Below, piece after piece: positions 1,966 through 44,716 of a stretch of 64,000 nucleotides of DNA. A program made the position numbers and the translations under genes. Source of the stretch: a virus; IMG/VR virus record IMGVR_UViG_3300023210_000011, positions 1-64,000 of that record, one strand, 5' to 3'. Positions within the stretch are counted from its first letter, which is position 1; every line of letters starts with the position of its first letter. The notes below the pieces were generated by a model that worked only from the letters and a program-made list of their open reading frames with translations, did no database searches and was not told the origin of the DNA.

Positions 1966-1991
1966 CTTATGGCGCAGAAAACCTAAAGTTT
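1966..1991 (-). promoter_or_regulatory. Phage promoter-like element P1
   Basis: Read leftwards: AAACT, 14 bases, CCATAAG. It lies about 50 bases upstream of the gene starting at 1915 and follows a terminator hairpin. Member of the 26-copy family described in the findings. Confidence 0.65.
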
Positions 1992-2001
1992 ACTCGAGGT
2001 G

Positions 2002-2027
2002 TGTGGGGCCTCAAACGGGGCCCCACA
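2002..2027 (-). terminator. Terminator hairpin after the 2053 gene
   Basis: TGTGGGGCC / GGCCCCACA stem of nine pairs around a short loop, just past the stop of the leftward gene ending at 2053. No long U tract follows. Confidence 0.6.
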
Positions 2028-2052
2028 GCACATTACGCGTCTCTGCAAGACG

Positions 2053-2346
2053 CTACTGGTACAGCCTCCGCAGCCCCTCCATGATGAACTCCCGCATACA
2101 GGTCAGCAGGATTCGCCACTTGATCGGGTCGTCATCACCCTCGAAGACGAAGATGAGGACAATGTTGCCCTCCTCCAACTCGTAGTCGGTGGTGAAGATG
2201 AGATCCATCAGACTCACGAGCTCTCCCCCGAGGTTGTTGAGGTCCTGGGGAGCCTGCGGGAAGACACTCCACCCCGGCGCAAGCAGGACATCTACGGAGA
2301 CATCTGCCCCCCGCGCCCGAAGGATGATCTTCGTATTCACGTCCAT
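2053..2346 (-). CDS. Hypothetical protein, 97 aa
   Basis: The ATG at 2346 (MDVNTKIILRARG) is preferred over the GTG two codons earlier because AAGGAG sits at normal distance from it. The product looks like a compact alpha/beta protein with strands KIILRA and NIVLIFVFEGD and a helical C-terminus (REFIMEGLRRLYQ). Last gene of the 3813-to-2053 operon. Function unknown. Confidence 0.6.
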   Translation of the reverse strand: MDVNTKIILRARGADVSVDVLLAPGWSVFPQAPQDLNNLGGELVSLMDLIFTTDYELEEGNIVLIFVFEGDDDPIKWRILLTCMREFIMEGLRRLYQ

Positions 2347-2348
2347 GT

Positions 2349-3008
2349 TCACTCCTTTTCTGTGGAATCGCGAGGGGTGCCCTCGTGCTTTTCGAAGTCT
2401 CTGGCACGTCTGTAGGCTTCCTCCTGCGCAGAGCCGTCATCCACACCCCAGAAGGTGGAATGCACTACCGCCCCGTCCGTGTCTCGCGTGAGCACGACAC
2501 GGAACCGGGTCTTGTCTTTGTTGAACTCGGTGGTCTGCGTCCAGGCCATGTGTTTGGGCCAGCGGGGGAGCGCAGGATCGCCGGTCATCCGGCGGCGCCA
2601 GTACATGCTGTTGACCGGCGCGGAAGAGCAGTCCGACGGTTGGATCTCTCTCCCCAGGCGCACTCCCATACATCTCGGGCACGCATGCCCGTTCTTGGGG
2701 TAGAGCCGCTCCCACAGGGCATCCTTCAGCATCACCATGTCGAAGTCCTCTCGATGGCAATCCTGGCAGAAGTACCGGTGGGTGTAGAACCACTTGTTGT
2801 TGGCCTTCACTCTCCGCTCGAGCTCCCCCGGCATCACAACTTCCCAGGGGGCAGCATTCAAGGTCTCCAGCACCCCAGGCTCATCCATCTCCAGGGCCGC
2901 GTACTCCTGGGATCCATAGTAGTAGTCGGACGACAGGTGGGTCCGATCGTCAGCACGGACGTAGATCGGCCCGGTCACCTCGGTGAGCAGCGCCTCGGGA
3001 AGGCTCAT
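2349..3008 (-). CDS. Hypothetical protein with zinc ribbon, 219 aa
   Basis: Residues around 80-120 hold two CxxC knuckles, CQDC and CPRC, about 35 residues apart, a spacing compatible with one zinc ribbon. The C-terminal half (KTRFRVVLTRDTDG, EEAYRRARDFEKH) resembles a beta-sheet plus helix module. It overlaps the upstream gene by four bases. No enzymatic motif is visible. Confidence 0.6.
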   Translation of the reverse strand: MSLPEALLTEVTGPIYVRADDRTHLSSDYYYGSQEYAALEMDEPGVLETLNAAPWEVVMPGELERRVKANNKWFYTHRYFCQDCHREDFDMVMLKDALWERLYPKNGHACPRCMGVRLGREIQPSDCSSAPVNSMYWRRRMTGDPALPRWPKHMAWTQTTEFNKDKTRFRVVLTRDTDGAVVHSTFWGVDDGSAQEEAYRRARDFEKHEGTPRDSTEKE

Positions 3009-3358
3009 GGCCCTCTCCGACTCTCTGCGTAGTCCTTGCAGAGTGACTGGAACTTGGGGTCGCCTTCGATCTCAATACCCATCGCCTTGGCGCGGGCCAA
3101 GACTGCCTCGGGTCCGTGAGGAAACACGGACCCGATCAGCTTCTCCCGCACCGACGACTTCAGGTACCGGCTGCCGTCTCCCGACTCATTGGCCCGGTCG
3201 AAGGTGGCATTCATGTCCCTTCGCCACTCCTTGAGCATCTGCGCTTCGAGGTCGGCCAGCAGTTCCTCGCGCGTGTAGTTGTAGTGAGTGAAGCTGTCGA
3301 CGATGGAGCTCCAGCGGCAGAACTTGCCGTTGGGCTGCTTCATGATTCGGGATCCCAT
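3005..3358 (-). CDS. Hypothetical protein, 117 aa
   Basis: Starts at ATG 3358 overlapping the upstream stop (TGATG) with GAGGGG upstream. The product is charged and helical (REELLADLEAQMLKEWRRD) with an N-terminal basic segment. No recognised domain. Translationally coupled to both neighbours. Confidence 0.6.
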   Translation of the reverse strand: MGSRIMKQPNGKFCRWSSIVDSFTHYNYTREELLADLEAQMLKEWRRDMNATFDRANESGDGSRYLKSSVREKLIGSVFPHGPEAVLARAKAMGIEIEGDPKFQSLCKDYAESRRGP

Positions 3359-3813
3359 CAGTTCATCCCCTCCCGGCCGCTCAGGTTGTGGAAGCGGCCA
3401 CTCACCGCACTTCCTTCCTGGATCTCGACTTCTCCGAGGGTCTTGGGTCCCAGGATCTGCCGGGTCATCATGAGGTTCACACCCTCCCCGGAAGCGGTGA
3501 TCATGATGATCTCCATCCTCGCCGGGTCTTTACTGGGTGCCCCAGAGAGTGGGTTCATGCTCAACCAGGCCTCAGAGACCATGAAGACGCACTTGGCGCC
3601 CTTCTCCTCTGCGATCGACTGGACGATCGCCGCCAGGTGGTCCTTGTTCGCCGCAGGGAACACGGCGCCAGGGACCAGCTGCACCGTGTTGTCGATGAGG
3701 AAGCCGAACATCTGCTGGACCTCCTCTCCCTGCTCCTCACGAAAGCTCGAGGCGACGTCCATCAGGTCGTATGCGATGTTCTTCGCCCTGTCAGAGAGGC
3801 TCTGTTCTACCAT
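3358..3813 (-). CDS. Hypothetical alpha/beta protein, 151 aa
   Basis: First gene after promoter element P2 at 3857-3882. The N-terminal 60 residues are helical (SDRAKNIAYDLMDVASSF); the middle has strand-like stretches KCVFMVSEAW and MEIIMITASGEG. The layout recalls small phage proteins of unknown function with an alpha/beta core. No catalytic residues can be assigned. Confidence 0.6.
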   Translation of the reverse strand: MVEQSLSDRAKNIAYDLMDVASSFREEQGEEVQQMFGFLIDNTVQLVPGAVFPAANKDHLAAIVQSIAEEKGAKCVFMVSEAWLSMNPLSGAPSKDPARMEIIMITASGEGVNLMMTRQILGPKTLGEVEIQEGSAVSGRFHNLSGREGMN

Positions 3814-3856
3814 TTTGCACCTCCGGGCCGGCTACGGATGTCCGACCTCTGAGGGC

Positions 3857-3882
3857 TTTATGGCCTCATTAGGACTAAGATT
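3857..3882 (-). promoter_or_regulatory. Phage promoter-like element P2
   Basis: Leftward AATCT, 14 bases, CCATAAA, 44 bases upstream of the gene starting at 3813. Confidence 0.6.
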
Positions 3883-3890
3883 TTGCCGCG

Positions 3891-3920
3891 AGGATGCGGG
3901 CCCCGAAGGGCCCGCATCCT
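3891..3920 (-). terminator. UUCG-loop terminator hairpin
   Basis: Perfect 12-base arms AGGATGCGGGCC / GGCCCGCATCCT around a six-base centre containing UUCG on the transcribed strand. It begins at the stop codon of the gene ending at 3920 and separates two operons. Confidence 0.75.
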
Positions 3921-4522
3921 CAATCCGCCATGTACAGACCACCGGGGTTGTGGTCCGTCAGCATCCCTACGATGTCGATGGGAATCGTTCCACGAATGCG
4001 CTCATCTCGGTAGCAGGCGTCGATGAGCTCTCTCAAGATGGGCGGGTTCGCCATCGGGCACTGGGAGAAGAACCTCATCCACCATCCGTAGCTCAGGGGC
4101 CCACCCACCTGGGCCTTCAGGAACGCCAGGAAGGCGGTCGCCCCGCCAGTGATCGGCTCTCGCGGGATCAGCTCATCGCCGCCGACAGACTGCGGACAGC
4201 TGAAGTCCCACAAGTCTCCCGCACCCTTCGGGGTGTGCCAAGGAGTCCCGCCGGCAGTGTTGAAGTACAGACCTTCGACATCATCTCGGTAGGTCCACAG
4301 TGTCGGATCGAGGATCGGCACCTTCTTCTCGAACATGGAACCCGGACGCCCAGAGAGGACGACCCAGCTGTGCTGACTGCCCACTCCCGAGCACATCCCT
4401 CTCGCGACCCGAGAAGGGCCATACAGCTTCTTCTGCGCGATGGCCAGGCTCACCTCGTGGCACTTGCCATGCCATGTGGCCAGGGGGATTCCGATGGCCG
4501 CGGCCACCTCTTCTTGGTTCAT
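3920..4522 (-). CDS. Putative transglutaminase-like cysteine protein
   Basis: The start is ATG 4522 (MNQEEVAAAIGIP); the longer frame overlaps the upstream gene. In order the product has GKCHEVSLAI, SGVGSQHSWVVL and PILDPTLWTY. This Cys...His-x-W...Asp-P-T arrangement is the pattern of the transglutaminase/papain-like catalytic triad. If real, the enzyme would act on amide bonds, as a protease or amidotransferase. It is 200 residues and lacks a signal peptide. The triad is seen in the sequence; the fold is inferred and no homologue was checked. Confidence 0.5.
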   Translation of the reverse strand: MNQEEVAAAIGIPLATWHGKCHEVSLAIAQKKLYGPSRVARGMCSGVGSQHSWVVLSGRPGSMFEKKVPILDPTLWTYRDDVEGLYFNTAGGTPWHTPKGAGDLWDFSCPQSVGGDELIPREPITGGATAFLAFLKAQVGGPLSYGWWMRFFSQCPMANPPILRELIDACYRDERIRGTIPIDIVGMLTDHNPGGLYMAD

Positions 4523-4923
4523 GCCTTTTCCTTTGGGGCCCAGTCGATGTCGAGCTCTCGCGCCCTCTCTACGAGGCGCTCCTTCCAGTGAACCGGAGAG
4601 AAGGAGTCGTGCAGCCACTGGAGCCAGCTCAGGAGGTCGACGAGGTCGTGTCTGTCGATCTCCGCATCGGGGAGGCCCTGACTCTTCTGGATTGCACGCA
4701 GAACCTCGGACTCTACGGAGGCTTGTCCCTCGAGGTCCTCAGTGTAGAACTCACTGGTGATCAGACAGCCCAGGGCGCACTTCAGTCCTTCTGGGGATCG
4801 GTACCTGCAGGAGGAGGGCGGGGTGAGAGGCGTATCAAGGCCTACGATGGCCTTCTTTCCCTGCTTCATCAGGTGGTCGGCACTCTTGATGAAGATCTTC
4901 TTGACCACGTCAGTCGTCTGCAT
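4519..4923 (-). CDS. Hypothetical protein with conserved-looking CALGCL motif
   Basis: Starts at ATG 4923 (MQTTDVVKKIFIKSADHLMKQ). The centre reads SSCRYRSPEGLKCALGCLIT, a layout resembling a small family found in bacteria and phages in which a C...G.KCA.GCL core precedes an acidic helix. The C-terminus is rich in W, H and D (WLQWLHDSFSPVHWKERL). It overlaps both neighbours by a few bases. Function unknown. Confidence 0.55.
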   Translation of the reverse strand: MQTTDVVKKIFIKSADHLMKQGKKAIVGLDTPLTPPSSCRYRSPEGLKCALGCLITSEFYTEDLEGQASVESEVLRAIQKSQGLPDAEIDRHDLVDLLSWLQWLHDSFSPVHWKERLVERARELDIDWAPKEKA

Positions 4924-5383
4924 TCTTGCTCCACGAATACGTCTGGCGCATCCTGCGTACGTGGGGGGTGTGCTCGTCCAAGGCAGGGATGTCTGCCATC
5001 TTGTCGATCTCCGGACCAAGGACTGAGCGGAGGTACTCCACATGCTCCCGGTTGAAGTCTATGGTCCAGCGCCAGCCTCGCAGGTCTCTGGCCCTTCGGC
5101 GCAGACATCTGCGGCATGTCGTATGTGTGATCTCCCAGGACAGCGGGTGTCGGTTCATCTGTGCCTGATCTGGGACGCAGTCCGGGTAGTAGTGAAGGCG
5201 GCGCGTCGCACGCTCCACCTGGGTCACTCCCTTGTAGATGTCGGACATGTTCTCGCGAAGGCCCAGCCCCTGAAATGTCCCATCGTTCAGTGCCCTCGCC
5301 TCCACGGCATCCAGGACATGCCCTACTCTCGTCTCCCCACTGTAGTGGAACCAGACAGCATCTCCCTCTTTGAACTCAGCCAT
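4910..5383 (-). CDS. Hypothetical protein, putative SH3-like N-terminus
   Basis: Begins MAEFKEGDAVWFHYSGETRVGHVLDA, typical of a small SH3-like or KOW-like barrel (GDxVWFxYxGExxxGxV). A CRRC pair and a basic stretch (CLRRRARDLRGWRW) follow, then a Tyr/Trp-rich C-terminus. Strong AAGGAGG is present before ATG 5383. A nucleic-acid or protein-binding role is possible but not shown. Confidence 0.55.
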   Translation of the reverse strand: MAEFKEGDAVWFHYSGETRVGHVLDAVEARALNDGTFQGLGLRENMSDIYKGVTQVERATRRLHYYPDCVPDQAQMNRHPLSWEITHTTCRRCLRRRARDLRGWRWTIDFNREHVEYLRSVLGPEIDKMADIPALDEHTPHVRRMRQTYSWSKNADD

Positions 5384-5566
5384 GTGGGGCCTCCTTGTCT
5401 TGTCCAGGCTTGTGGATGTTGCCGACGTGGATGATCCGGGCGGTGCCGTACACCTTCAGAGCCACATCATTCGCACGCTCCCACGTCGTGTAGGAACCCC
5501 ATCGCTGCCAGCTGGGGTTGCGTTCCCATCGCTGACTTCCACCCTCCAGGGGCGCTTCTTCGACAT
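5376..5566 (-). pseudogene. Small gene split by an apparent frameshift
   Basis: A start at ATG 5566 (MSKKRPWRVEV) overlaps the preceding stop, but this frame ends after 36 codons. The -1 frame, open to 5376, encodes QRWERNPSWQRWGSYTTW and RANDVALKVYGTARI, which look protein-like and end just inside the start region of the next gene. Together they would make one 63-residue protein if one base were gained or lost near the GGGAAC at about 5500-5520. No canonical slippery heptamer is visible, so an indel or base-call error is the simplest reading. Confidence 0.4.
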
Positions 5567-5655
5567 CAGTAGTCGTCCTCTCCGCGTGGGACCGGGAGCG
5601 CCCGGCCGGTGTCGTCGCTCACGAGGATGCGGGGCGCGGTTATGGGGTCAGCCAT
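5566..5655 (-). CDS. Mini-protein, 29 aa
   Basis: ATG 5655 follows GGAGG at six bases, inside the end of the upstream gene. The peptide is MADPITAPRILVSDDTGRA plus a ten-residue acidic tail ending DDY. Its stop overlaps the next start (TGATG), so it sits in a translational chain. Too short for family assignment. Confidence 0.4.
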   Translation of the reverse strand: MADPITAPRILVSDDTGRALPVPRGEDDY

Positions 5656-6178
5656 GGGGCGCCTCCGGGTACATCGCAGCGCACAGCCCATCGACCCCGT
5701 AGCCCTCAAACCACGCCGGCCAGCATTCGGGCCCATCGTCGTGCATCTTCACGACCTCATAGGCGGCGGAGATGGTGGCCGACTTCCAGGCCCGCAGTCC
5801 CTCGACCTCGGCGCGCAGGGCGTCGCGCTCCCTCTCGGCCGCCCGCAGCGCATCGGTCCGCCGGGTCAACAGTCGCTCGCGCGCGGCGGCGTTCTTCCGC
5901 TCCCGGGCGCGCTCCGCTCTGGCCAGATCAATGTGCCCCAGGGCGGAGTCCATATTGCTGTGCAGGAACTCGATATTCTCGTGCAGCGCGATGACTGTGC
6001 GGGCGAGGGCGGGGGCGGCGGCGAACAACGCCCCCGCCGCGCGCAAGGCGGCAGCCTCCTCGGGCGAGGTCGTCCACGTCCACTCCTTCAGCGTGAACAG
6101 TGCCGGACCAGACAGCCCCTCGACGGCGTCCAGCAGCGCCCGCGCCTCGGCGGCGGTCACGGCGTCGGCGGCGCTCAC
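5648..6178 (-). CDS. Alanine-rich coiled-coil protein, 176 aa
   Basis: The centre (residues about 75-130) is a heptad-rich basic/acidic helix with repeated ERARERKNAAARERLL and RAAERERDALRAEVEGL, typical of a coiled coil. The C-terminus is aromatic (ECWPAWFEGYGVDGL). Probably an oligomeric binding protein; function unknown. It is higher in GC and alanine than its neighbours, suggesting separate acquisition. Confidence 0.6.
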   Translation of the reverse strand: MSAADAVTAAEARALLDAVEGLSGPALFTLKEWTWTTSPEEAAALRAAGALFAAAPALARTVIALHENIEFLHSNMDSALGHIDLARAERARERKNAAARERLLTRRTDALRAAERERDALRAEVEGLRAWKSATISAAYEVVKMHDDGPECWPAWFEGYGVDGLCAAMYPEAPHG

Positions 6179-6474
6179 GAGGTCACATCACCCTCGTCCG
6201 TCTCCGGCTTCCGGGGCTCCAAGAGCCCCACCGCGGCGCCGACCATGAGATCCCGCACCCTCAGGTGCTCGCTGGAGAGGATGAAGTCCCCCACTCTCTT
6301 GTCGGCAGCTACAGTCGTCATGGCGACTTCTTCCTCATCGAGCGACATGAAGTGCGGGCACTCCTTGCCTCCCTCGAAGTGAGCGACACTCTGTCGCTTC
6401 CCCCACTCCGCACGGTAGCGGAAGCACTTGTTCCGCACATCGCACCCGGCGTTCGTACACAGCGTGATGTCCAT
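6175..6474 (-). CDS. Small cysteine-rich protein, 99 aa
   Basis: The ATG at 6474 has AAGGAGG at seven bases. The N-terminus carries CTNAGCDVRNKCFRYRA followed about 27 residues later by CPHF, a four-cysteine pattern seen in small phage/plasmid proteins likely to bind zinc. The rest is acidic and helical. First gene after promoter P3. Confidence 0.6.
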   Translation of the reverse strand: MDITLCTNAGCDVRNKCFRYRAEWGKRQSVAHFEGGKECPHFMSLDEEEVAMTTVAADKRVGDFILSSEHLRVRDLMVGAAVGLLEPRKPETDEGDVTS

Positions 6475-6503
6475 GCTCACACCTCCTTAGATTGAGCAGA
6501 GAG

Positions 6504-6529
6504 CTTATGGCGCCTAATGACCTAAATTT
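6504..6529 (-). promoter_or_regulatory. Phage promoter-like element P3
   Basis: Leftward AAATT, 14 bases, CCATAAG, 30 bases upstream of the gene at 6474. The flanking GCGAAATTT is shared with element P4. Confidence 0.7.
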
Positions 6530-6553
6530 CGCACCCTAAGAGAGTGCCACGAG

Positions 6554-6575
6554 GGGGGGCCCCGAAGGACCCCCA
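6554..6575 (-). terminator. UUCG-loop terminator hairpin
   Basis: GGGGGGGCCC / GGACCCCC arms around CGAA (UUCG on the transcribed strand), immediately past the stop at 6579. Confidence 0.65.
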
Positions 6576-6578
6576 CCT

Positions 6579-6773
6579 CTACTCGCACTCTGCGTACTCA
6601 CGCAGCTCCTCGATCTCTGCCTCGAGCTCGACGATATGAACGACGATGCCCAGATTTTCGCACCTGTTCAGTGATCCTCCATGAAGGTACCAAGTCACTC
6701 CGTACCAGGGGCACACGCCAAGGCCGTGATTTCTCCTCGCAGCTGCTCTCGGAGCCCCTGAAGGTACTTGCAC
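6579..6773 (-). CDS. Small acidic-tailed protein, start uncertain
   Basis: The frame ends with VELEAEIEELREYAECE, a short acidic coiled coil, and is followed by a terminator. The listed GTG start gives 64 residues; a later GTG (about 6698) that overlaps the stop of a competing frame would give 39. No good ribosome site decides between them. It is the last gene of the methyltransferase operon. Confidence 0.35.
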   Translation of the reverse strand: MQVPSGAPRAAARRNHGLGVCPWYGVTWYLHGGSLNRCENLGIVVHIVELEAEIEELREYAECE

Positions 6774-6804
6774 TCAACAGAGAGCTCCTGGGCGTGCGCG
6801 CTCC

Positions 6805-10044: not shown

Positions 10045-10585
10045 CTCTCGGTGATCTACCAATAGATACCTATACCAAGAGGTACCAGGAGAGGATGCGA
10101 AGCGTCCCCACGACACGAGGCATCCCCCAGTGGGGGGTGCCTTGACTGTCGTGATGTGGCTGCGTGTAGAGGAAGGTGCAGAGGAAGATGTAGAGGAATG
10201 AGCAGAGAAAAAGAACCGGAAAGAGCCCGATGGGGGCGAGGAAAGAATGAGGGGAAAAGGTAAGTTAATCAGTATGCCCTTTAGAAGTCTAAAGGCCGTT
10301 AGGACCCTTTATAGGCCATTCCCCGATGGGACACGCGGTTAGAGCCTGTATTCCCCCGATGGGAAGGGTGCGAATAAGTGTACTCCAGACCCCCCCCTAT
10401 ACGGTGTAAGGCACTGCTTCCTACTGAAATCTCTTTTCGTACTCTTTCTATGGGCTAAGAAAAGGCCACGACTCATCCCTCTTCCGGGGGGGAGTCGCGC
10501 CTTACCGGGGTGAGGGAGAGGCTTACCCAAGGAGGTGCGAATGCTTGTTGGAAGACAGCAGGTAGTGTGCCCCTCCCTCGAGTTC
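10045..10585. other. Gene-poor interval with repeats and a possible mini-ORF
   Basis: No convincing gene except the candidate at 10,339-10,476. The interval is AG-rich on the plus strand at 10,160-10,265, holds three copies of CCGATGGG (near 10,229, 10,323 and 10,356) and an imperfect inverted repeat around 10,470-10,500 that would place the mini-ORF start in a stem. Transcription should enter from P5 on the right. Confidence 0.5.
10339..10476 (-). CDS. Possible basic mini-protein, 45 aa
   Basis: ATG 10476 has GGAAG at four bases and encodes a basic peptide beginning MSRGLFLAHRKSTKRDFSRK. It is the only frame with a plausible start downstream of promoter P5. Composition is consistent with a small nucleic-acid-binding peptide, but length and the poor context make it tentative. 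Confidence 0.3.
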   Translation of the reverse strand: MSRGLFLAHRKSTKRDFSRKQCLTPYRGGSGVHLFAPFPSGEYRL

Positions 10586-10611
10586 CTTATGGCGCGGAAT
10601 CTTCCCTTTTT
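10586..10611 (-). promoter_or_regulatory. Phage promoter-like element P5
   Basis: Leftward AAAAA, 14 bases, CCATAAG. An ACTTCTTAGC motif lies just upstream, as also at P20. Confidence 0.6.
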
Positions 10612-11054: not shown

Positions 11055-11109
11055 GATGTCCTCCTCAGGACAGTAGCGAGAGGGGGGTTTACTCCTCCCG
11101 CTACAATAC

Positions 11110-11135
11110 TTATGCCCTCGAACACCCCCAAATTG
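11110..11135 (-). promoter_or_regulatory. Phage promoter-like element P6
   Basis: Leftward CAATT, 14 bases, GGCATAAG, 56 bases upstream of the gene at 11,054; the stretch downstream of the -10 reads TATTGTAG, near the ATAGTAG seen at other sites. Confidence 0.65.
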
Positions 11136-11667: not shown

Positions 11668-11718
11668 GTCGAACTCCATAGAGAGAAAGGGGGGTTCAAT
11701 CCTTCCTCGCTACTATTA

Positions 11719-11744
11719 TTATGCCTTTTTTGAGGGGTAAATTA
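11719..11744 (-). promoter_or_regulatory. Phage promoter-like element P7
   Basis: Leftward TAATT, 14 bases, GGCATAATAATAGTAG; one of the clearest copies of the extended -10 region. Confidence 0.75.
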
Positions 11745-12196: not shown

Positions 12197-12251
12197 CAGA
12201 ACATCCAGTGAGGAGAGAAGGGGGTGAAATCTACCCTCGTCACTACTATTA

Positions 12252-12277
12252 TTATGCCGTTTTCCAACCTGGATTTA
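12252..12277 (-). promoter_or_regulatory. Phage promoter-like element P8
   Basis: Leftward TAAAT, 14 bases, GGCATAATAATAGTAG. Confidence 0.75.
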
Positions 12278-17567: not shown

Positions 17568-17589
17568 TATACCTCCGGCCTCTTTGGCC

Positions 17590-17615
17590 TTATGACGGGT
17601 AATAAGGGGGTTTCA
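17590..17615 (-). promoter_or_regulatory. Phage promoter-like element P9
   Basis: Leftward TGAAA, 14 bases, GTCATAAG, 23 bases upstream of ATG 17567; it would drive the longest leftward operon (about 5 kb). Confidence 0.6.
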
Positions 17616-19771: not shown

Positions 19772-19818
19772 TGTGTTTCTCACATTCGCAGTGCGGGTCT
19801 AATTGTCCCGTATGCTCG

Positions 19819-19844
19819 TTATGACCCCTAATGATAGGATTTTA
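19819..19844 (-). promoter_or_regulatory. Phage promoter-like element P10
   Basis: Leftward TAAAA, 14 bases, GTCATAAC, 48 bases upstream of the lipoprotein operon. Confidence 0.6.
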
Positions 19845-20969: not shown

Positions 20970-21012
20970 ACCCCCAGTCAAGCGTCAAGGCATAGCCTTC
21001 CCTCTACTACTA

Positions 21013-21038
21013 TTATGCCGTTTTTCGGCGGGGAATTT
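21013..21038 (-). promoter_or_regulatory. Phage promoter-like element P11
   Basis: Leftward AAATT, 14 bases, GGCATAATAGTAGTAG. The upstream box overlaps the stop codon of the receiver-domain gene. Confidence 0.75.
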
Positions 21039-21624: not shown

Positions 21625-21658
21625 CTGCACCTCCTACAGGTTGAGTCCTGTAGGAGAC

Positions 21659-21684
21659 TTATGCCGTGATAGACAGCCGGTTTC
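21659..21684 (-). promoter_or_regulatory. Phage promoter-like element P12
   Basis: Leftward GAAAC, 14 bases, GGCATAAG, 35 bases upstream of the receiver-domain gene. Confidence 0.65.
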
Positions 21685-22363: not shown

Positions 22364-22417
22364 TGTGCCCTCCTGGGCAAGTGGAGAGGTTGGTCATACT
22401 CCTCCCCACTACTATAT

Positions 22418-22443
22418 TTATGCCCGAAATCAGCCTGTATTTA
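22418..22443 (-). promoter_or_regulatory. Phage promoter-like element P13
   Basis: Leftward TAAAT, 14 bases, GGCATAAATATAGTAG. It overlaps the stop of the gene at 22,441. Confidence 0.75.
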
Positions 22444-22728: not shown

Positions 22729-22764
22729 TGGACGCCTCCAGTGTTGAAGTCCTTAGCTTCATTG

Positions 22765-22790
22765 TTATGCCTCCGTATAGGGAGAAATTG
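22765..22790 (-). promoter_or_regulatory. Phage promoter-like element P14
   Basis: Leftward CAATT, 14 bases, GGCATAAC, 37 bases upstream of ATG 22728. Confidence 0.65.
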
Positions 22791-23028: not shown

Positions 23029-23093
23029 TGAACCCTCCGTGAATTTCTCGAGAGACTACAGTACACCGCGTACTGCTCTCCTCTCTACTTATA

Positions 23094-23119
23094 TTATGCC
23101 CGGAACTGACCCGTATTTT
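23094..23119 (-). promoter_or_regulatory. Phage promoter-like element P15
   Basis: Leftward AAAAT, 14 bases, GGCATAATATAAGTAG, upstream of the 37-residue gene. Confidence 0.7.
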
Positions 23120-23211: not shown

Positions 23212-23649
23212 TCAGCCTTCCAGCTCGAATCCGCCGACCAAGTCGGAGACCCAACCCCACTGCACGTCTTCGACGCCGTGGAACCCCAGAATCCGCGTCA
23301 CTTTCGTGCGCTTCCTGAAGTTGGACCCGCCTTTCAGCGACTCTGGATTGAACTCCACCCCGTGCTGCGTGCAGATCTCCGCCCAGGTGTCAAACCGGGC
23401 AGCGAACTTCACGCAGCTCGAGTGGCCGAGACCTTTCGGAATCGTCCACCCGAGCACACTCGGGACTGCTTGGCCGAGAAGAGCCCAGAGGCAGAACCAG
23501 ACGTCATTCCACTCCTCGCGGATGTGGGGGACGTCCAGGTCCCTGACTGCCTCGGCGAGTTCATGGAACTCCCCAAAACAGAACCTCCAGGTCATCGGAC
23601 CTGCCAGAAGATGACGCCTCAGGTCTGAGACCTTGAAGTGTTTCTTCAT
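23212..23649 (-). CDS. MazG-like pyrophosphohydrolase-type protein, 145 aa
   Basis: Residues 40-60 read VPHIREEWNDVWFCLWALLG, resembling the E-E-x-x-D helix of phage MazG-like proteins, and the C-terminal SNFRKRTKVTRILGFHG recalls the NxRKxxKV segment of that family. ATG 23649 lies only seven bases after the -10-like box with no ribosome site, so a leaderless message or a later start (residue 19, after AGG) is possible. Moderate confidence in family. Confidence 0.5.
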   Translation of the reverse strand: MKKHFKVSDLRRHLLAGPMTWRFCFGEFHELAEAVRDLDVPHIREEWNDVWFCLWALLGQAVPSVLGWTIPKGLGHSSCVKFAARFDTWAEICTQHGVEFNPESLKGGSNFRKRTKVTRILGFHGVEDVQWGWVSDLVGGFELEG

Positions 23650-23656
23650 ATCTATG

Positions 23657-23682
23657 TTATGCCCGTTCTACGGGCTAAATTT
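23657..23682 (-). promoter_or_regulatory. Phage promoter-like element P16
   Basis: Leftward AAATT, 14 bases, GGCATAAC; the predicted start of transcription falls at ATG 23649. Confidence 0.7.
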
Positions 23683-23720: not shown

Positions 23721-25160
23721 TCACGCCATCGCTCCGTCGATCAGCTCCTGAACGCTCCACTTGGGGTGCGCGTCCTGGAGCTCGAGACACTTCTCCAAGA
23801 TCGGGCCAAAGTGCCATCCCGGCTTCATCTTCCGTGCAATCAGGTCCCGGCCCTGCACCTTCGGATCCGGAGGAGCGTTCTCGAACTCCGCCGCCCGGTC
23901 CAGAACCAACTGGGAGGTCTTGTGGTTCCAGTCGGGACTGCCAGTCTTGAGGGACCGAGTCTTCCAGTCTGCCGAGGTGGCGCATGAATCGCACTGGCAG
24001 ACACTCGCCAGATGCCGCAGAGTGAGGCCGCACGCCCCGAGGCGCCGGTGGAGCCTCGCCCACGCACCGCCCGACGCGTTCCCCTGCATGAGGTTCCACG
24101 GCTGCATGTGCTCACCAACCAAGCACGTGACCTTCTGCCGGAGCTTCTTTCCGCCCCGCTCCCCCGTGAATCGGGAGAGGAATAGATCTGCGGGAGCCCT
24201 CCCCTTCTGGTCGTGTCCCCAGGCGGTCCACAGCCGCTCCTTGGGCGCCTCGTCCCGGGCCACCATCTCCGGAGTGATAGTGGTCAGCGGCTTTCCGATG
24301 TCATGCAGGAAAGCCGCCAGCATGATGACCAGGCGATCCTCCTCGGGCAAGAAGCTCCGGAGCTCAGCCGCCGCATCCAAGGCCAGCAGGCTGTGCACCA
24401 TGACATTGCCCTCTGGGTGGTGATCCGGGCTCTGACCGGTACTCGCCAGCGCCGACAGCTCCGGAGCCATGAACTCCCAGAGTCCGAGGTCGCTGGCCAG
24501 CTGGACCCCGATGCTCGGCTTCTCGGCCTTGAGCATCAGCTTCTCCAGCTCCGCGAAGAGCCGCTCCGGGGGCAGATGCTCCGTCTCCCGCACCATGCTG
24601 CGCATCAGCAGCATGGTGTGTGGGTCCACCGATAGGGCCTTCCGGGGAAGGAGCTGGACGGCCCTCCACACACGAAGGGAGTCCTCCCGGAAGAGGTCGG
24701 GATCCGTTGCCCGGAGAACCCCAAAAGACAGGTCCCGGAGCCCACCCCACTCATCCACAATCTCGCCCGTAGCGATGTCCATCGCCAGGGTGTTGATCGT
24801 GAAGTCGCGACGGCGGGCAGCCTCGCGCACAGACATCGTGGGGTCCACCTCCACCACGAAGTCCTTGTGTCCCTTGCCGACCTTGTTGTCGGTGCGCGGC
24901 ACGTTGATGTCGACGTCCACCCCATCGACGTTCAGCTTGAGGATGCCGAAGGCCCGACCAGCCTCCTTGACGGGATGGTCGGGGAAGAGGGCCGTGATCT
25001 GGTCGAAGTCGAGGCCGAACACCTCGAGATCCCAGTCCTTCGCGGCCCGGTCGCAAAGGAGGTCGATGACAGAGCCACCGACCAGAAGAGCGCGGCCCCC
25101 GCCGCGCTGGATTCGCCGAGCCACCATGTGGACCTCAGCAGGGATTGCGTGGGTGTTCAT
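23721..25160 (-). CDS. CCA-adding/poly(A) polymerase-type nucleotidyltransferase with HD domain
   Basis: ATG 25160 follows GGAGGG. Near residue 25 the product has LLVGGSVIDLL and KDWDLEVFG, the class II nucleotidyltransferase G-G and acidic motif; VDVDINVPR supplies the next acidic pair, and RRDFTINTLAMDI is the motif that binds the incoming nucleotide. A C-terminal HD domain contains FLHDIGKP. These enzymes add CCA or A tails to RNA 3' ends in the cytoplasm; HD versions also hydrolyse 2',3'-cyclic phosphates. In this genome it may repair the phage tmRNA, host tRNAs or structured RNAs. Confidence 0.85.
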   Translation of the reverse strand: MNTHAIPAEVHMVARRIQRGGGRALLVGGSVIDLLCDRAAKDWDLEVFGLDFDQITALFPDHPVKEAGRAFGILKLNVDGVDVDINVPRTDNKVGKGHKDFVVEVDPTMSVREAARRRDFTINTLAMDIATGEIVDEWGGLRDLSFGVLRATDPDLFREDSLRVWRAVQLLPRKALSVDPHTMLLMRSMVRETEHLPPERLFAELEKLMLKAEKPSIGVQLASDLGLWEFMAPELSALASTGQSPDHHPEGNVMVHSLLALDAAAELRSFLPEEDRLVIMLAAFLHDIGKPLTTITPEMVARDEAPKERLWTAWGHDQKGRAPADLFLSRFTGERGGKKLRQKVTCLVGEHMQPWNLMQGNASGGAWARLHRRLGACGLTLRHLASVCQCDSCATSADWKTRSLKTGSPDWNHKTSQLVLDRAAEFENAPPDPKVQGRDLIARKMKPGWHFGPILEKCLELQDAHPKWSVQELIDGAMA

Positions 25161-25176
25161 GTTCCCTCCTACTCCC

Positions 25177-25202
25177 TTATGCCGTGTTGTTTCGGCCTTT
25201 TG
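25177..25202 (-). promoter_or_regulatory. Phage promoter-like element P17
   Basis: Leftward CAAAA, 14 bases, GGCATAAG, 17 bases upstream of the nucleotidyltransferase ATG; a second AAATCTTAG box lies further upstream. Confidence 0.65.
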
Positions 25203-25545: not shown

Positions 25546-25554
25546 CTATACATA

Positions 25555-25580
25555 TTATGCCCGAATACGGGCACTATTTA
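25555..25580 (-). promoter_or_regulatory. Phage promoter-like element P18
   Basis: Leftward TAAAT, 14 bases, GGCATAAT; drives the structured-RNA unit. Confidence 0.75.
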
Positions 25581-26019: not shown

Positions 26020-26043
26020 ATGAACCTCCTTGGCTCATACACC

Positions 26044-26069
26044 TTATGCCCCAATAGAGGTCGGTTTTG
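26044..26069 (-). promoter_or_regulatory. Phage promoter-like element P19
   Basis: Leftward CAAAA, 14 bases, GGCATAAG, 25 bases upstream of ATG 26019. Confidence 0.65.
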
Positions 26070-27640: not shown

Positions 27641-27654
27641 CTGCTCTACTTACT

Positions 27655-27680
27655 TTATGCCCCAAACAGGTACGGAATTT
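27655..27680 (-). promoter_or_regulatory. Phage promoter-like element P20
   Basis: Leftward AAATT, 14 bases, GGCATAAAGTAAGTAG; ACTTCTTAGC lies 15 bases upstream of the first box. Confidence 0.7.
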
Positions 27681-28121: not shown

Positions 28122-28138
28122 TCTCACCTCCACCTATA

Positions 28139-28164
28139 TTATGACCTTTTGGGGCCAGAAATAA
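28139..28164 (-). promoter_or_regulatory. Phage promoter-like element P21
   Basis: Leftward TTATT, 14 bases, GTCATAATATAGGTGG; the upstream box is the weakest of the set. Confidence 0.5.
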
Positions 28165-29057: not shown

Positions 29058-29460
29058 TGGTGGACCTGGTGGGAGTCGAACCCACGTCCGCAGCATCATT
29101 CCTCAGTCCGTTCGCTACATCCCCGTACTTGACCCAGCGGGGCGGGTGTCCCAGGTGGCTTCCCCTGGCTCCAGTTGTCCTTCACGCGAGGCTCTAAAGG
29201 CCTCGCCGCATTCCAGCCCGCTGAGCAACTTCCTCTCTCTTGAGCTTGCGAAGTCTCGTTTTACACCTGGTGAAGCTCGACCAGCTTCCTCACCAAGCAC
29301 CGGGGCTCACGGAGTCCCCGGACTTCTCTCACGCGGCCGCGGCCACGGGAGCGAAGTGGTTGTTGTTGTTGGCAATTGTCGTTTGCCTCACCGTTAGGCC
29401 GGTGAGCACGCCGCAGCGCGAACTTTCGTGCAGATACCCCGTCGAAACCGTTTCAGGCCC
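29058..29460 (-). ncRNA. ssrA: Transfer-messenger RNA (tmRNA)
   Basis: The 5' end GGGCCTGAAACGGTTTCGACGG and the 3' end GGACGTGGGTTCGACTCCC...CAGGTCCACCA match the tmRNA tRNA-like domain; GGGCCTG pairs with CAGGTCC (one G-U) and CCA is encoded. A PK1-like stem CTCACCG/CGGTGAG lies before the tag reading frame. The best tag, from GCC at 29,373 to TGA at 29,329, is ANNNNHFAPVAAAA (14 residues). tmRNA rescues stalled ribosomes and marks products for proteolysis. Phage copies are known mainly in large phages. Tag start is inferred. Confidence 0.9.
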
Positions 29461-30446: not shown

Positions 30447-30485
30447 GGGTCACTCCAGTCGGGGTTAGATCTTCTGACATCAGCG

Positions 30486-30511
30486 TTATGCCGCGAAAAA
30501 TCGGGGGTTTT
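30486..30511 (-). promoter_or_regulatory. Phage promoter-like element P22
   Basis: Leftward AAAAC, 14 bases, GGCATAAC, 40 bases upstream of the 30,446 start. Confidence 0.6.
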
Positions 30512-30834: not shown

Positions 30835-30887
30835 GGGACTCTCCTTTGCTACATGGGTATTGGTAGCGTATTTTCTTCTCTAAATAG

Positions 30888-30913
30888 TTATGTGACCCTT
30901 TACCAGCTCTTTG
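30888..30913 (-). promoter_or_regulatory. Phage promoter-like element P23
   Basis: Leftward CAAAG, 14 bases, CACATAAC; it overlaps the ribosome site of the divergent rightward gene at 30,923. Confidence 0.5.
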
Positions 30914-36873: not shown

Positions 36874-36876
36874 GAC

Positions 36877-40688: not shown

Positions 40689-40860
40689 TCAACACCGCGA
40701 ATAGTCCATTTGCCCTTGGCATGAAAAAGAAGATAATTCGCTTCATCGTGGCCCCTGTAAAGGTGTCACACCAGGCTTTCCCGGACAATCCAGTACGTCC
40801 CTGGTGCGGTGAATACTCCTTCGATTTCTCCGGAGATTTCTCGGTTTCCTCACACCGATG

Positions 40861-40886
40861 TTATACCGGAAAAACGGAGGGAATTT
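40861..40886 (-). promoter_or_regulatory. Orphan phage promoter-like element P24
   Basis: Leftward AAATT, 14 bases, GGTATAAC. It fits the family but points into the rightward late region and ends one base before the ATG at 40,887, with no leftward gene next to it. It may give antisense RNA. Confidence 0.45.
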
Positions 40887-41150
40887 ATGCCGCCACAGAA
40901 GAAGACCATTGCGGTCCTGCTGACGCAGGTGACGGAGCTCCGGCAGCGTGCTGCGGTCCAGACTGCCCTCGTGCAGATCTTGCGGACCCGGTATCTGCCG
41001 AGGGATGGGGTCCCGGAGGCCCTGGCCCAGATTGACTGCGAGGGGGCACCCGTCTCTGCCGACATCATCGAGGAGATGGTGGAGGAGTTGGAGGATGTGG
41101 TGTCGGAAATCAACAAGGAAGTCCGCTCGATTCTGAGCCAGGAGGCCTGA
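40887..41150 (+). CDS. Helical hypothetical protein, 87 aa
   Basis: ATG 40887 with ACGGAGG. MPPQKKTIAVLLTQVTELR and DIIEEMVEELEDVVSEINK are helical, suggesting a coiled-coil protein. Coupled to the next gene. Function unknown. Confidence 0.5.
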   Translation: MPPQKKTIAVLLTQVTELRQRAAVQTALVQILRTRYLPRDGVPEALAQIDCEGAPVSADIIEEMVEELEDVVSEINKEVRSILSQEA

Positions 41151-41531
41151 ATGCCATCGCGCACCGAACGACTCGAAGCCAAGTTCACTGAGCTCGAGCA
41201 GCGCATCGCCCTACTGGAGAAGATCCAGTCCGAGGGCATCGATCACCTGATCACCGAGATCCAGAGGCTGTCAGAGAATGACGGAGTACTCGGGGAAGTC
41301 GCAGAGCAGCATGACAACCTCCTCGCAGCACTGCGAGCACTGCTCGATGAGAAGAAGGTCGTGAGTGACGCCGAGGTCACCGCGAAGACCCAGGAGATCT
41401 CAGATCTCCGAGAGCGTGCTCAGAAGAGCCGGGACCAAGAGGCCGAGCTCCGGCAGGTGGCCTTCCGCGCAGAGGAAGCAGCCAAGGAAGAGGCAGGTCA
41501 CCCGAAGGAAGCGTTCATCTTCGGGAGCTAA
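41151..41531 (+). CDS. Coiled-coil protein, 126 aa
   Basis: Long heptads throughout (EAKFTELEQRIALLEKIQ, EISDLRERAQKSRDQEAEL). A scaffold or fibre-like role is possible. Last gene before a bidirectional terminator. Confidence 0.55.
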   Translation: MPSRTERLEAKFTELEQRIALLEKIQSEGIDHLITEIQRLSENDGVLGEVAEQHDNLLAALRALLDEKKVVSDAEVTAKTQEISDLRERAQKSRDQEAELRQVAFRAEEAAKEEAGHPKEAFIFGS

Positions 41532-41541
41532 GGCCTTCGAG

Positions 41542-41573
41542 GCGTACGGGGGTCCCGAAGGACCCCCGTACGC
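41542..41573. terminator. Bidirectional terminator
   Basis: GCGTACGGGGGTCC / GGACCCCCGTACGC, fourteen perfect pairs around CGAA, between convergent genes ending at 41,531 and 41,580. Confidence 0.85.
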
Positions 41574-41579
41574 TCTTGC

Positions 41580-42065
41580 TCACCGCTGGCCGCACTGCCC
41601 GCAGTAGCTCTCGGTCTCTGTTCCGTGACGGCAGAAATCTCCAGACTGGAGAATTCGCTGTTGGATGGCATCTTCTCTCTCGACAAGAACTCCATCGAGA
41701 GTCTCTACCCGCAACTCCATATTGCCGAGGTCTCCGTCCCACATGCGGTCTCGCACGATGCGGTGTGCCCGAGAGTCTACGAAGTCGCGCGGGCCTGTCT
41801 GCTTTACCCAGTCTCGTGCCGGCCAAGAGGCAAAGCGCCAGCGGACCTGGAAGGTAGCAGGCGAGGGTGAGGATGGCTGATCGGGCTTCCGGACCCGGAC
41901 CCATGCGAGGGTCCAGACTTCTCCTGTCTCTGGATCTTTCCGTCCCAGGTCTTCGTCAGTGGCGAAGGTCTGGTCACTCGAGTCGATGATCGTGGAGATC
42001 TCACGATCGAAGAGCCCGCAGGGCTCAAACGTGTCGAGGTCGGGGACCTCCAGGGTACGGGGCAT
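41580..42065 (-). CDS. Hypothetical protein, zinc knuckle at C-terminus, 161 aa
   Basis: Beta-rich body (VWTLAWVRVRKPDQP, TFQVRWRFASWPARDW) and a C-terminal CRHGTETESYCGQCGQR knuckle. Last gene of the ligase operon. Confidence 0.55.
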   Translation of the reverse strand: MPRTLEVPDLDTFEPCGLFDREISTIIDSSDQTFATDEDLGRKDPETGEVWTLAWVRVRKPDQPSSPSPATFQVRWRFASWPARDWVKQTGPRDFVDSRAHRIVRDRMWDGDLGNMELRVETLDGVLVEREDAIQQRILQSGDFCRHGTETESYCGQCGQR

Positions 42066-42106
42066 CAGTCCTCCAGGTATTTGCTGTGCCAGTCCGGGAT
42101 CTTCAT
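42065..42106 (-). CDS. Possible leader peptide, 13 aa
   Basis: ATG 42106 with GAGG encodes MKIPDWHSKYLED; its stop overlaps the next ATG (TGATG), a typical reinitiation arrangement. Confidence 0.3.
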   Translation of the reverse strand: MKIPDWHSKYLED

Positions 42107-42336
42107 GTAGACCTCAAAACGTGATTGAAATGGCGCGTGGTTCGGCGTGTCCTGGTGAGGAACCCCGAGAACAGGGGGGAGTAGCCACAGCTCTTGCACT
42201 GCAGCGTGGGGGTCAGCTGGTAGCCGCCCGGAGGGGGCGTGCCTCGCTGGTTCCACGGGCACTGGACGAGCACCTGGCCCATCTTGTAGTGCTTCTTTCC
42301 GCAGTCGGGGCAGGGAATGTAGGAAGGACGCCTCAT
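42103..42336 (-). CDS. Zinc-ribbon protein, 77 aa
   Basis: MRRPSYIPCPDCGKKHYKM and LQCKSCGYSPLF form CPDC...CKSC, a ribbon about 40 residues across. The tail is basic (TRTRRTTRHFNH), so it may bind nucleic acid. Confidence 0.6.
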   Translation of the reverse strand: MRRPSYIPCPDCGKKHYKMGQVLVQCPWNQRGTPPPGGYQLTPTLQCKSCGYSPLFSGFLTRTRRTTRHFNHVLRST

Positions 42337-42599
42337 GTCGTTCCCCACCGCTCTACGGCCGTGAGCGGTGCCTTGCATCCCCAGAACCGGAGCCGAATGA
42401 CCAGTCCCCGGCCCCGGTTCTGCTCCCAGGCTCCGTGCCTGAAGTCGAGCACTCCGGCGTACACGCGCTCGGCTACTCGACGCTCAATCGGAGCACCCGG
42501 GCAGTGCGTGGTGAGCTCTCCTTCTGCGAGGTCGCAGACCACGCACTCAGAGATGCCCTCGTGTCCGGGGACATCTCTGAGCTTGTGCTCTCGGGACAT
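42333..42599 (-). CDS. Hypothetical protein with CVVC, 88 aa
   Basis: MSREHKLRDVPGHEGISEC begins a segment with CVVC and a C-P near residue 33, then a beta-rich end (GRGLVIRLRFWGCKAPL). Possible metal site. Directly follows the stop of the gene above. Confidence 0.5.
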   Translation of the reverse strand: MSREHKLRDVPGHEGISECVVCDLAEGELTTHCPGAPIERRVAERVYAGVLDFRHGAWEQNRGRGLVIRLRFWGCKAPLTAVERWGTT

Positions 42600-42764
42600 C
42601 TACCGCCCGCCCCAAGGGAGGAGAGTGCCTCCCCGGATCTCGCGTTCTACGCCGCACTCACAGCGGCACCACCAGGTCACTTGGCCGTTTTTCTTTCCGT
42701 GTCTTCGAAGTACAGACCACTTCCCATAGGCGTGCCCAGTTTCATCTTTCACTTTTGCTGCCAT
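42600..42764 (-). CDS. Small zinc-binding protein, 54 aa
   Basis: ATG 42764, inside the end of the ligase gene, encodes MAAKVKDETGHAYGKWSVL followed by WWCRCECGVEREIRGGTLL. The YGKW-S/T-V...C-x-C-x-C-G pattern is common in short phage proteins and at the N-termini of HNH homing endonucleases, where it likely binds DNA. No nuclease follows it here. Confidence 0.55.
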   Translation of the reverse strand: MAAKVKDETGHAYGKWSVLRRHGKKNGQVTWWCRCECGVEREIRGGTLLPWGGR

Positions 42765-44052
42765 AGGTCAGACTCTCCTCGATGCACTCTTCTGCCTCCT
42801 TGTCGTCGCGAAATCGAACGACCCGAGGGAACTGAAGTGCGTTGGTGGCCTCCCCGTCGGCGATGAAGGTCCGGCTGGCGAATTGAATCTCTGCGACCAC
42901 AGGGAACACGCCAGGAGTGCTGAGCCAGTTCCTGTGGTCCTGGGTGAGTCCTCCTCCGCAGTCGCACAAGTAGACCAGTTCTCCGTCGGCGTCGTATTGG
43001 TGGAGGGCTACGGACCCTACCTTTCCACGGTTCTTCCCGCGGCCGTACTTGCCGACGCCCTGTTCGGGGTCCCATAGGCAGACAGCATCCAGTTCGAAGA
43101 CGGGCTTCAGCTTGCAGCAGGTGTTCGGGCGGTCGGGCTTGCCGCGCAGGTTGAAGGACTTCTCGCCGTAGGTGGAGTGCGGGTCCACGATGACGAAGCC
43201 CTCCCACCCCTGAGCGACCAGGGTGTTGCGGAGTCCCTCGACCCCCTTGTAGTCGCCTTCGATGAAGGTCTCCGGCGGATGTACGAACTGGCCGGAGAAC
43301 AGGTCCGCGTGGTCCAGGCGGAACCGGTACTGCATCTCTCCGAGCAGCTGGAGCCCGGCAGCCCAGGCCACGTCCCAGCAGATGAAGTGCAGGAACCCGG
43401 TCTTCTCCTGGATCTCGAGGGCCTTCGGAGTCAACGACTTCATCACCTTCGCGACCCGCCATCGATCATCCGCGTCAGGCCCGTTCACGATCTCGCCCAA
43501 CAGGATGGTGTTGTTCGGGATCTCGTCGTTCTCCTCGATCTCCGTGGCGATGTGGTCGAAGCGCTCGCGCCAGGTGTGCTGATCTTCGAGGTGGTGATTC
43601 GTCAGCATCCGTCGGCTGAAGAAGATCGCCTCCCCCTCGGAGTTCTTGACGATGACCATCATCTCGCCATCGTACTTCCGCACCGCCCACGCCTTCCCGT
43701 CCTCGACCATCTTCTCCATCTTCTTGTTCAGCGAGTTCTGAGGCTTGTAGAAGGACAGGTTGTCCACGATGCCGTGCTCGAAGGGGCTGTAGTCAGCGGT
43801 CTCCTCCAGCTTCGTGTCGTAGCCCTTCCGCATCTTCTTCGAGATCAGGCGATCCATCATGTTCTGCGCGTCTTGCTCAGCCGAGACCTCGTTGCTGCGC
43901 CCCGCGTGCTTGGCGGTTCCGTAGTCCGTGACCTCCTGCATCTTCCCGTCGAGCTGGCCGAAGCGCGTGTGGACCGCGTTCCCCTCGACAGCGATTTCCC
44001 AGACCCGCACAGCGCCGGTGCGCGCACGGTTATAGAGTGTGGTGTAGTTCAT
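42742..44052 (-). CDS. ATP-dependent DNA ligase with N-terminal WGR domain
   Basis: The first about 80 residues resemble a WGR domain (YNRARTGAVRVWEIAV, HTRFGQLDGKMQEV). The ligase core has the active-site lysine in VRKYDGEMM (K126), LLGEIVNGP (motif III), WEGFVIVDP (motif IV) and CKLKP (motif V). It seals nicks with ATP, forming an enzyme-AMP intermediate; WGR domains bind DNA or nicks in PARP enzymes. Start ATG 44052 follows GGAGG. First gene of its operon. Confidence 0.85.
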   Translation of the reverse strand: MNYTTLYNRARTGAVRVWEIAVEGNAVHTRFGQLDGKMQEVTDYGTAKHAGRSNEVSAEQDAQNMMDRLISKKMRKGYDTKLEETADYSPFEHGIVDNLSFYKPQNSLNKKMEKMVEDGKAWAVRKYDGEMMVIVKNSEGEAIFFSRRMLTNHHLEDQHTWRERFDHIATEIEENDEIPNNTILLGEIVNGPDADDRWRVAKVMKSLTPKALEIQEKTGFLHFICWDVAWAAGLQLLGEMQYRFRLDHADLFSGQFVHPPETFIEGDYKGVEGLRNTLVAQGWEGFVIVDPHSTYGEKSFNLRGKPDRPNTCCKLKPVFELDAVCLWDPEQGVGKYGRGKNRGKVGSVALHQYDADGELVYLCDCGGGLTQDHRNWLSTPGVFPVVAEIQFASRTFIADGEATNALQFPRVVRFRDDKEAEECIEESLTYGSKSER

Positions 44053-44067
44053 TGTGCCTCCGGGGGA

Positions 44068-44093
44068 CTTATGGCCGGGAAAACTGAAATCTT
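44068..44093 (-). promoter_or_regulatory. Phage promoter-like element P25
   Basis: Leftward AAGAT, 14 bases, CCATAAG, drives the ligase operon; it overlaps the start of the divergent gene at 44,071. Confidence 0.6.
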
Positions 44094-44274
44094 GCAGCGC
44101 GCCGATGTGGACATCGATGCCTTCGACAAGTGGTTTCAGGAGCAGGGAGCTCAGCCTCTTGTCAGATCAGAGCGCGCTATCATCAAGACATTCTTGGTGG
44201 CGCTCCGGTCAGGCAAGCTCGCGCCCCCCGCACACGAGGGCACGACTGAAATGCCGCCGTGCCGGCTAACGTGA
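44071..44274 (+). CDS. Small protein, 67 aa
   Basis: ATG 44071 (MAGKTEILQRADVDIDAFD) with a G-rich site four bases upstream. The centre (PLVRSERAIIKTFLVALRS) resembles a common small phage protein with an E-R/K-A-I/L-L-K-T-F/Y-L helix. Encoded opposite the ligase promoter. Function unknown. Confidence 0.5.
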   Translation: MAGKTEILQRADVDIDAFDKWFQEQGAQPLVRSERAIIKTFLVALRSGKLAPPAHEGTTEMPPCRLT

Positions 44275-44283
44275 GAGCCGCTA

Positions 44284-44309
44284 CGCCCCCGCACCGAAGT
44301 GCGGGGGCG
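44284..44309. terminator. Bidirectional UUCG terminator
   Basis: CGCCCCCGCAC / GTGCGGGGGCG around CGAA between convergent genes at 44,274 and 44,319. Confidence 0.85.
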
Positions 44310-44318
44310 GGTTTCCGC

Positions 44319-44669
44319 TCATCCGACCTGGGCGTACCCATCTCGGACCAGCCCCAGTCGGCGGGGCTGGTCCATGATGATGTGACGCACCTTTCTCGAC
44401 ACATCCTCCTTACTCCTGTTGGGCCAGCCTTCCGCCAGCCACCACATCGCCTCCCTGCCGGTCATCAAGACCGAGATGTCGAGCACCTCGATCTTGACGT
44501 CGAGGAACTCAGGCCTTTGAGTAACTGGCTCCCTGCCCGTCCCCGACGACAAGTTCTTCGCGAACTTGTCGTCGTCCCGGCGGGCCTGGCGGCCCGCCTG
44601 GTTCTGGCTGTCGATTGCCTGGATGGCGCCGACAGCCGCGGCAACGATGCCGCAAGTCACAAAGAACAT
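44319..44669 (-). CDS. Putative membrane-anchored protein, 116 aa
   Basis: ATG 44669 with GGAGG. The N-terminal MFFVTCGIVAAAVGAIQAI is hydrophobic (signal anchor), followed by a basic/polar linker and a soluble part (IEVLDISVLMTGREAMWWL). Single-gene unit after P26. Confidence 0.55.
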   Translation of the reverse strand: MFFVTCGIVAAAVGAIQAIDSQNQAGRQARRDDDKFAKNLSSGTGREPVTQRPEFLDVKIEVLDISVLMTGREAMWWLAEGWPNRSKEDVSRKVRHIIMDQPRRLGLVRDGYAQVG

Positions 44670-44690
44670 CGTTCCTCCTGTGTACTATAC

Positions 44691-44716
44691 TTATGCCCGA
44701 TTCCGAGGTGTAATCC
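44691..44716 (-). promoter_or_regulatory. Phage promoter-like element P26
   Basis: Leftward GGATT, 14 bases, GGCATAAGTATAGTAC; it ends exactly at the base before the tape-measure ATG on the other strand. Confidence 0.6.

Follow-up and report, generated by a model that had tools for sequence, protein, structure and literature searches.

The window and its promoter copies

The window comprises bases 1-64,000 of a 131,435-bp IMG/VR phage contig, the remainder of which was analysed as well. The phage is large and uncultured, with a GC content of 63%. When its first 25 kb were compared by megablast with the phage collection, no relative emerged, and a scan of genome contigs for a host gave as its only match one of 31% in a Chloroflexales MAG. 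The gene calls come from an ad hoc hexamer/dynamic-programming caller, which makes distances to start codons approximate.

A short bipartite element recurs between the genes of this contig about 28 times: 27 intergenic copies, if the A-box is scored loosely, and one variant with GGTATAA in place of GGCATAA. The window holds 24 of the intergenic copies and, as a 25th, the variant; the other three lie elsewhere in the contig. All of them are on the minus strand, so the claim of the sequence-only reading that almost all read leftwards is borne out, and the plus strand of the 131-kb contig has none. We number the element so that the C of CATAA is -12, which places CATAA at -12 to -8. An A-box (AAWW, -32 to -29) is followed by a 14-base spacer, G at -14, [CT]ATAA ending at -8, six further bases, and then T at -1 and a purine at +1.

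Given from the A-box at -32 to the predicted +1, the copies on the minus strand of the window lie at 1959-1991, 3850-3882, 6497-6529, 10579-10611, 11102-11134, 11711-11743 (the top score with a position weight matrix, PWM), 12244-12276, 17582-17614 (upstream of a MazG-like gene), 19811-19843, 21005-21037, 21651-21683, 22410-22442, 22757-22789, 23086-23118, 23649-23681, 25169-25201 (upstream of the CCA-adding enzyme gene at 23721-25160, minus strand), 25547-25579, 26036-26068, 27647-27679, 28131-28163, 30478-30510, 30880-30912 (with a divergent -14 region, CACATAA), 40853-40885 (the variant with T at -12, which precedes a candidate non-coding RNA), 44061-44093 (upstream of an ATP-dependent DNA ligase, an arrangement shared with the related phages G002, G003 and G004) and 44683-44715.

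The sequence-only reading had counted 26 copies of a literal string, AAA[TA][TC]N14[GC]NCATAA. The motif is indeed real and has the look of a functional element, and its geometry was described correctly, but the string is too strict, since it has only six matches, every one of them on the minus strand. Looser words are just as one-sided: NCATAA is found 28 times on the window's minus strand versus 0 on the plus strand, and [GC]NCATAA 34 times versus 0 in the whole contig. Of the 33 [GC][GTC]CATAA sites, 22 have AA[AT] starting 20 bases ahead of the C; there are overlapping A-runs at offsets 19 and 21, and other offsets are nearly empty. We therefore agree that the 14-base spacer is fixed.

The proposed comparison of PWM hits with shuffled sequence came out clearly. 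A PWM trained on G004 finds, above 12 bits, 22 sites on the minus strand of this phage and 0 on the plus strand, against an average of 0.0 in five dinucleotide shuffles; one trained on Salmonella phage Arash finds, above 9 bits, 13 and 0, against 1.4 in shuffles. A wide, 46-column PWM was set aside, since a partial palindrome in it produced matches on the reverse strand, and our conclusions therefore rest on the cross-genome PWMs, the strand counts and the positions that played no part in choosing sites (-1 and +1).

The placing of the copies relative to genes also agrees with what had been read from the letters. Most have a called start codon 17-66 bases downstream (20-60 bases had been proposed), and a GC hairpin (z < -1.5) lies upstream of 17 of the 27 copies, compared with 7 of 60 random windows. 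By a strict criterion, 23 of the 43 minus-strand upstream regions are without the motif. A related site lies at genome position 96,117 on the minus strand, where GTCATAA without an A-box stands before the replication operon, as it does at the equivalent places in G002-G004; its flanks are conserved, TGTAG-like upstream and GTAGCAC downstream, and it may be a weaker version of the promoter or one under different regulation.

The genes under the promoters are mostly variable and of unknown function, as the suggestion of a promoter class for accessory genes had implied; however, a DNA ligase, the CCA-adding enzyme, MazG and the RNA candidate are among them too. "Early genes" would be the better label, at a guess. 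The same phage that encodes the CCA-adding enzyme carries a tmRNA (window 29058-29460, minus strand; Rfam RF00023, 77 bits) with the tag ANNNNHFAPVAAAA.

The predicted start site and a conserved RNA candidate

Two positions that were not used to choose the sites stand out downstream of CATAA: a purine at +1 in 27 of 27 copies and T at -1 in 18 of 27. From the letters we predict that transcription begins with this purine, 8 bases beyond CATAA, which is within the 5-9 bases that the sequence-only reading had set as a test. The ATAGTAG continuation that had been described reflects the conserved T at -1 and purine at +1. Of CATAAT, which had been compared with a -10 box, CATAA lies at -12 to -8; T is found at -7 in a minority of the 27 copies.

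The variant copy offers an independent view of the start. It precedes a conserved, structured RNA candidate of about 90 nt (40764-40853, minus strand), whose first base is the predicted +1 and which is shared by five phages, namely this one and, as homologues, G002, G003, G004 and G012. In the promoter ahead of it (G-14 at 40,867) conservation breaks from -5 to -1 and returns exactly at +1, thus placing the start, independently, where the promoter model predicts it. The consensus fold has 23 pairs, four of them changed on both sides, and a comparison of the candidate with Rfam gave no match.

A phage RNA polymerase and a phage sigma factor

Outside the window, at genome positions 101,896-108,222 on the plus strand, domain matches identify a fused beta-beta' RNA polymerase, a single chain of 2108 amino acids. 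It contains Rpb2 domain 6 (E=3e-63) and Rpb1 domains 2, 3 and 5, together with the motifs GRHGNKG and NADFDGD (the catalytic one). Over almost all its length the beta' part aligns with bacterial beta' (E=3e-114); the alignment is colinear and takes in the clamp region, the docking place of sigma region 2. On this evidence the phage beta' could bind a sigma. There is one polymerase match in the contig, which may be incomplete. The gene adjoins one whose Arash homologue directly precedes the Arash polymerase, a place where the portal protein (Gp204) is listed. As to layout (L095-L098, Arash/D69), the polymerase is fully fused in the clade of the window and elsewhere consists of a beta-beta'N fusion and a separate beta' C-terminal protein. 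In the D181/D148 polymerase locus a homing endonuclease is annotated inside.

Within the window (54128-54940, plus), the tail module of the virion strand includes a gene for a sigma-70-family protein of 270 amino acids with regions 2 and 3 and a C-terminal HTH, matching PF04539 (E=1.9e-11) and PHROG_351 (E=4.3e-9). A profile of its family alignment matches the structures of SigA, RpoS and FliA across regions 2-3, and some matches extend toward region 4. Support for region 4 comes from the C-terminal helices and those longer profile matches, and is weaker than for regions 2-3. A predicted structure of moderate quality (pLDDT 76, pTM 0.41) matches sigma-factor folds. The protein thus belongs to the sigma-70 family, with regions 2 and 3 present and region 4 probably so. 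Comparison of the base at -12 with the residues of sigma region 2, by eye in the alignment, gave no clean correlation.

Both genes are on the plus strand, which is the virion or late strand, among the virion genes. The polymerase is present in 15 of 16 sigma-bearing contigs, the exception being a 79-kb fragment.

Conservation of the promoter among relatives

Homologues of the polymerase and sigma are found in Salmonella phage Arash and Vibrio phages D69, D181 and D148, which are distant relatives (protein identity to Arash is about 30%). An exact-pattern scan of the relatives gave almost no matches. Because the bases at -13 and -12 and the A-box drift, the motif had to be discovered de novo. 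An EM search of this kind recovered the same element in G000, G004, Arash, D69, G012 and G017, metagenomic relatives among them, with the form AAAA...GTCATAA in G004, GGTATAAG in Arash and TGTTATAAG in D69. In G002, G003, G014 and G015 EM gave no clear motif; G002 and G003 are fragments with the early arm largely missing. Word counts in G014 (30% GC) put GTTATAA among the most enriched words other than RBS ones, and G015, which has both polymerase and sigma, shows a weak signal (2.5-fold). When the sites are aligned by register, an A-box near -32, G-14, YATAA, T-1 and R+1 recur across the relatives, the -1 signal being weak in G014.

With the strands analysed separately in six genomes, the element is confined to the non-virion strand. 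A search of the virion strand for a late promoter motif, with the strands split in the same way, found none.

The genome shares synteny with G002-G004 in its virion half but has almost no genes in common with them in the left 30 kb. The DNA ligase is preceded by an orthologous copy in four phages, and the gene content under the promoters differs almost completely between relatives. That a promoter is conserved where the genes are not is what one would expect of a signal read by a conserved machine.

The hypothesis

That the promoters are phage-specific is, in our opinion, close to shown. The proposal of a dedicated class outside sigma-70 is supported: TTGACA is absent, T at -7 is in the minority, the spacing is fixed, one strand is used and the element is conserved throughout the family. 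The accompanying suggestion was a phage factor or an altered host polymerase; the phage does encode a sigma-70-family protein, and given that a complete fused polymerase is encoded with it, the polymerase itself is probably viral. We consider it probable, judging from sequence, that these are early promoters of a transcription system carried by the phage and read by a phage polymerase and sigma brought in with the virion.

According to this hypothesis, the polymerase and sigma would be made late and packaged into the particle, and the holoenzyme would enter the cell together with the DNA. Region 4 of sigma would contact the A-box, region 3 G-14 and region 2 [CT]ATAA, RNA synthesis would begin with the purine that lies 8 bases beyond ATAA, and the early genes, which change rapidly, would be transcribed ahead of the first synthesis of phage protein. 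The need for packaging follows from the layout of the genome: as both genes are on the late strand and no copy of the motif stands before either, their products, to act early, must arrive with the particle. Published mass spectrometry of purified Arash particles detected RNAP beta more than any other protein (3516 spectra), and beta' with 1210 spectra and sigma with 467 as well; that proteome has 116 proteins, and according to its authors part of the enzymes could have been carried over (PMC10585845). Many of the 116 probably were. The Arash paper reports no promoter (PMC10585845).

For the more general statement, that an as yet unnamed and widespread phage group packs a complete bacterial-type holoenzyme of fused core and sigma, and uses private bipartite promoters, conserved over about 30% protein identity, to drive fast-changing early genes without the host polymerase, we judge the balance of evidence to be only slightly in favour.

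It is known that host sigma-70 promoters have TTGACA at -35 and TATAAT at -10, with T at -7 as a hallmark, and the sigma factors encoded by SPO1-type and group 2 jumbo phages are believed to work with the host core. The main rival explanation builds on the latter: the phage sigma would read these promoters with the host core, while the fused polymerase serves another purpose, such as late transcription. This sigma does retain recognisable bacterial regions, and jumbo phages that encode a sigma without an RNAP are thought to redirect the host core (PMC7598289, PMC7824862). However, sigma and phage polymerase go together in all but one of the sigma-bearing contigs, both were detected in purified Arash virions (PMC10585845), and the phage beta' is colinear with its bacterial counterpart through the very region that docks sigma region 2. 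We thus hold this rival to be unlikely, if the most serious one, and infer that transcription from these promoters relies on the phage polymerase, not on the host core, and comes first in infection.

One may also ask whether these are simply strong extended -10 promoters for the host housekeeping holoenzyme, given that the -10 of Arash, D69 and G014, TG(G/T)TATAA, comes near to the extended -10 TGnTATAAT. In our opinion this is very doubtful. The critical T at -7 is usually missing, so that a sigma-70 promoter is not what we see; Arash has G there in 15 of 20 sites (the D69 sites had been selected for G). Further, TTGACA is absent, this clade has C at -12, T-1 and R+1 are conserved, the strand of the virion genes never uses the motif, and a sigma-70 scan of the densest 20 kb gave four sites versus 2.4 expected by chance, all on the plus strand. 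Least credible of all is that the copies are binding sites of a regulator, an operator or a terminator-linked element, and not promoters: the hairpins that often lie directly upstream would suit such a role, but the -10/-35-like geometry, the purine at +1, the distance to genes and an RNA candidate that begins at +1 would not, and we give this reading hardly any credence.

Relation to known systems

Open-access surveys describe jumbo phages with multisubunit polymerases but without sigma, and sigma-bearing ones without a polymerase (PMC7824862, PMC7598289). The phage group described here has both, with a bacterial-like promoter geometry, and so bridges the two jumbo-phage strategies. A phage-specific motif near -10 is present here, with a conserved purine at the predicted start; the early promoters of phiKZ and AR9 have such a motif with a conserved start base downstream (in AR9, AAATATATATTAT-6N-G), found bioinformatically ahead of early operons (PMC5312081). 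The phage also encodes a beta/beta'-type polymerase, as those phages do; theirs is a virion enzyme, and this one may be, a virion location having been published for Arash (PMC10585845). However, those phages divide their polymerases among several polypeptides, have two sets of them and lack a sigma (PMC7824862, PMC7598289), whereas here we find one fused chain, one set, a sigma-70-family protein and a bipartite promoter. A fused core with a sigma lacks defining features of the phiKZ/AR9 system.

Among the nearest known systems are also Arash, D69, D181 and D148, with a homologous polymerase (about 30% identity) and a sigma at the same place in the tail module; for Arash and D69 the promoter architecture is the same too. 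They differ in the beta-beta'N fusion with its separate beta' C-terminal protein, in T rather than C at -12, and in a GC content of 45-53%. Bacillus phage 0305phi8-36 likewise combines a phage-specific motif, of 21 bp at 14 sites that are candidate promoters, with a phage RNA polymerase (PMC2147016); that polymerase, however, is a YonO/QDE-1-like single-subunit enzyme, and no sigma is recognised there. The virion RNAP of N4 is T7-like and single-subunit, unlike the beta/beta' type found here.

The element AAAT...GNCATAA also resembles the promoters of FliA and WhiG (sigma-28), with TAAA at -35 and GCCGATAA at -10 (PMC8325347), at a similar spacing, and WhiG and FliA structures are among the matches of the phage sigma. 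However, here C or T, not G, is at -12, the T before AAA is not conserved, the bases before ATAA differ, and the best sequence matches of the phage sigma are to SigA.

A transcription system of two proteins is simple and could be tested in vitro, and the promoter marks the genes expected to be switched on first, in genomes of mostly unknown genes.

A promoter copy outside the window, at genome 101,874 on the minus strand, lies just upstream of the polymerase gene and reads away from it, into a stretch of about 700 bp with small ORFs between the polymerase and the preceding gene; it is conserved in G002, G003 and G004. In Arash (OQ632216), one and the same intergenic stretch, its TTATATAAG core palindromic in appearance, is repeated in at least five places, at about 26742, 66489, 100245, 138592 and 173366.
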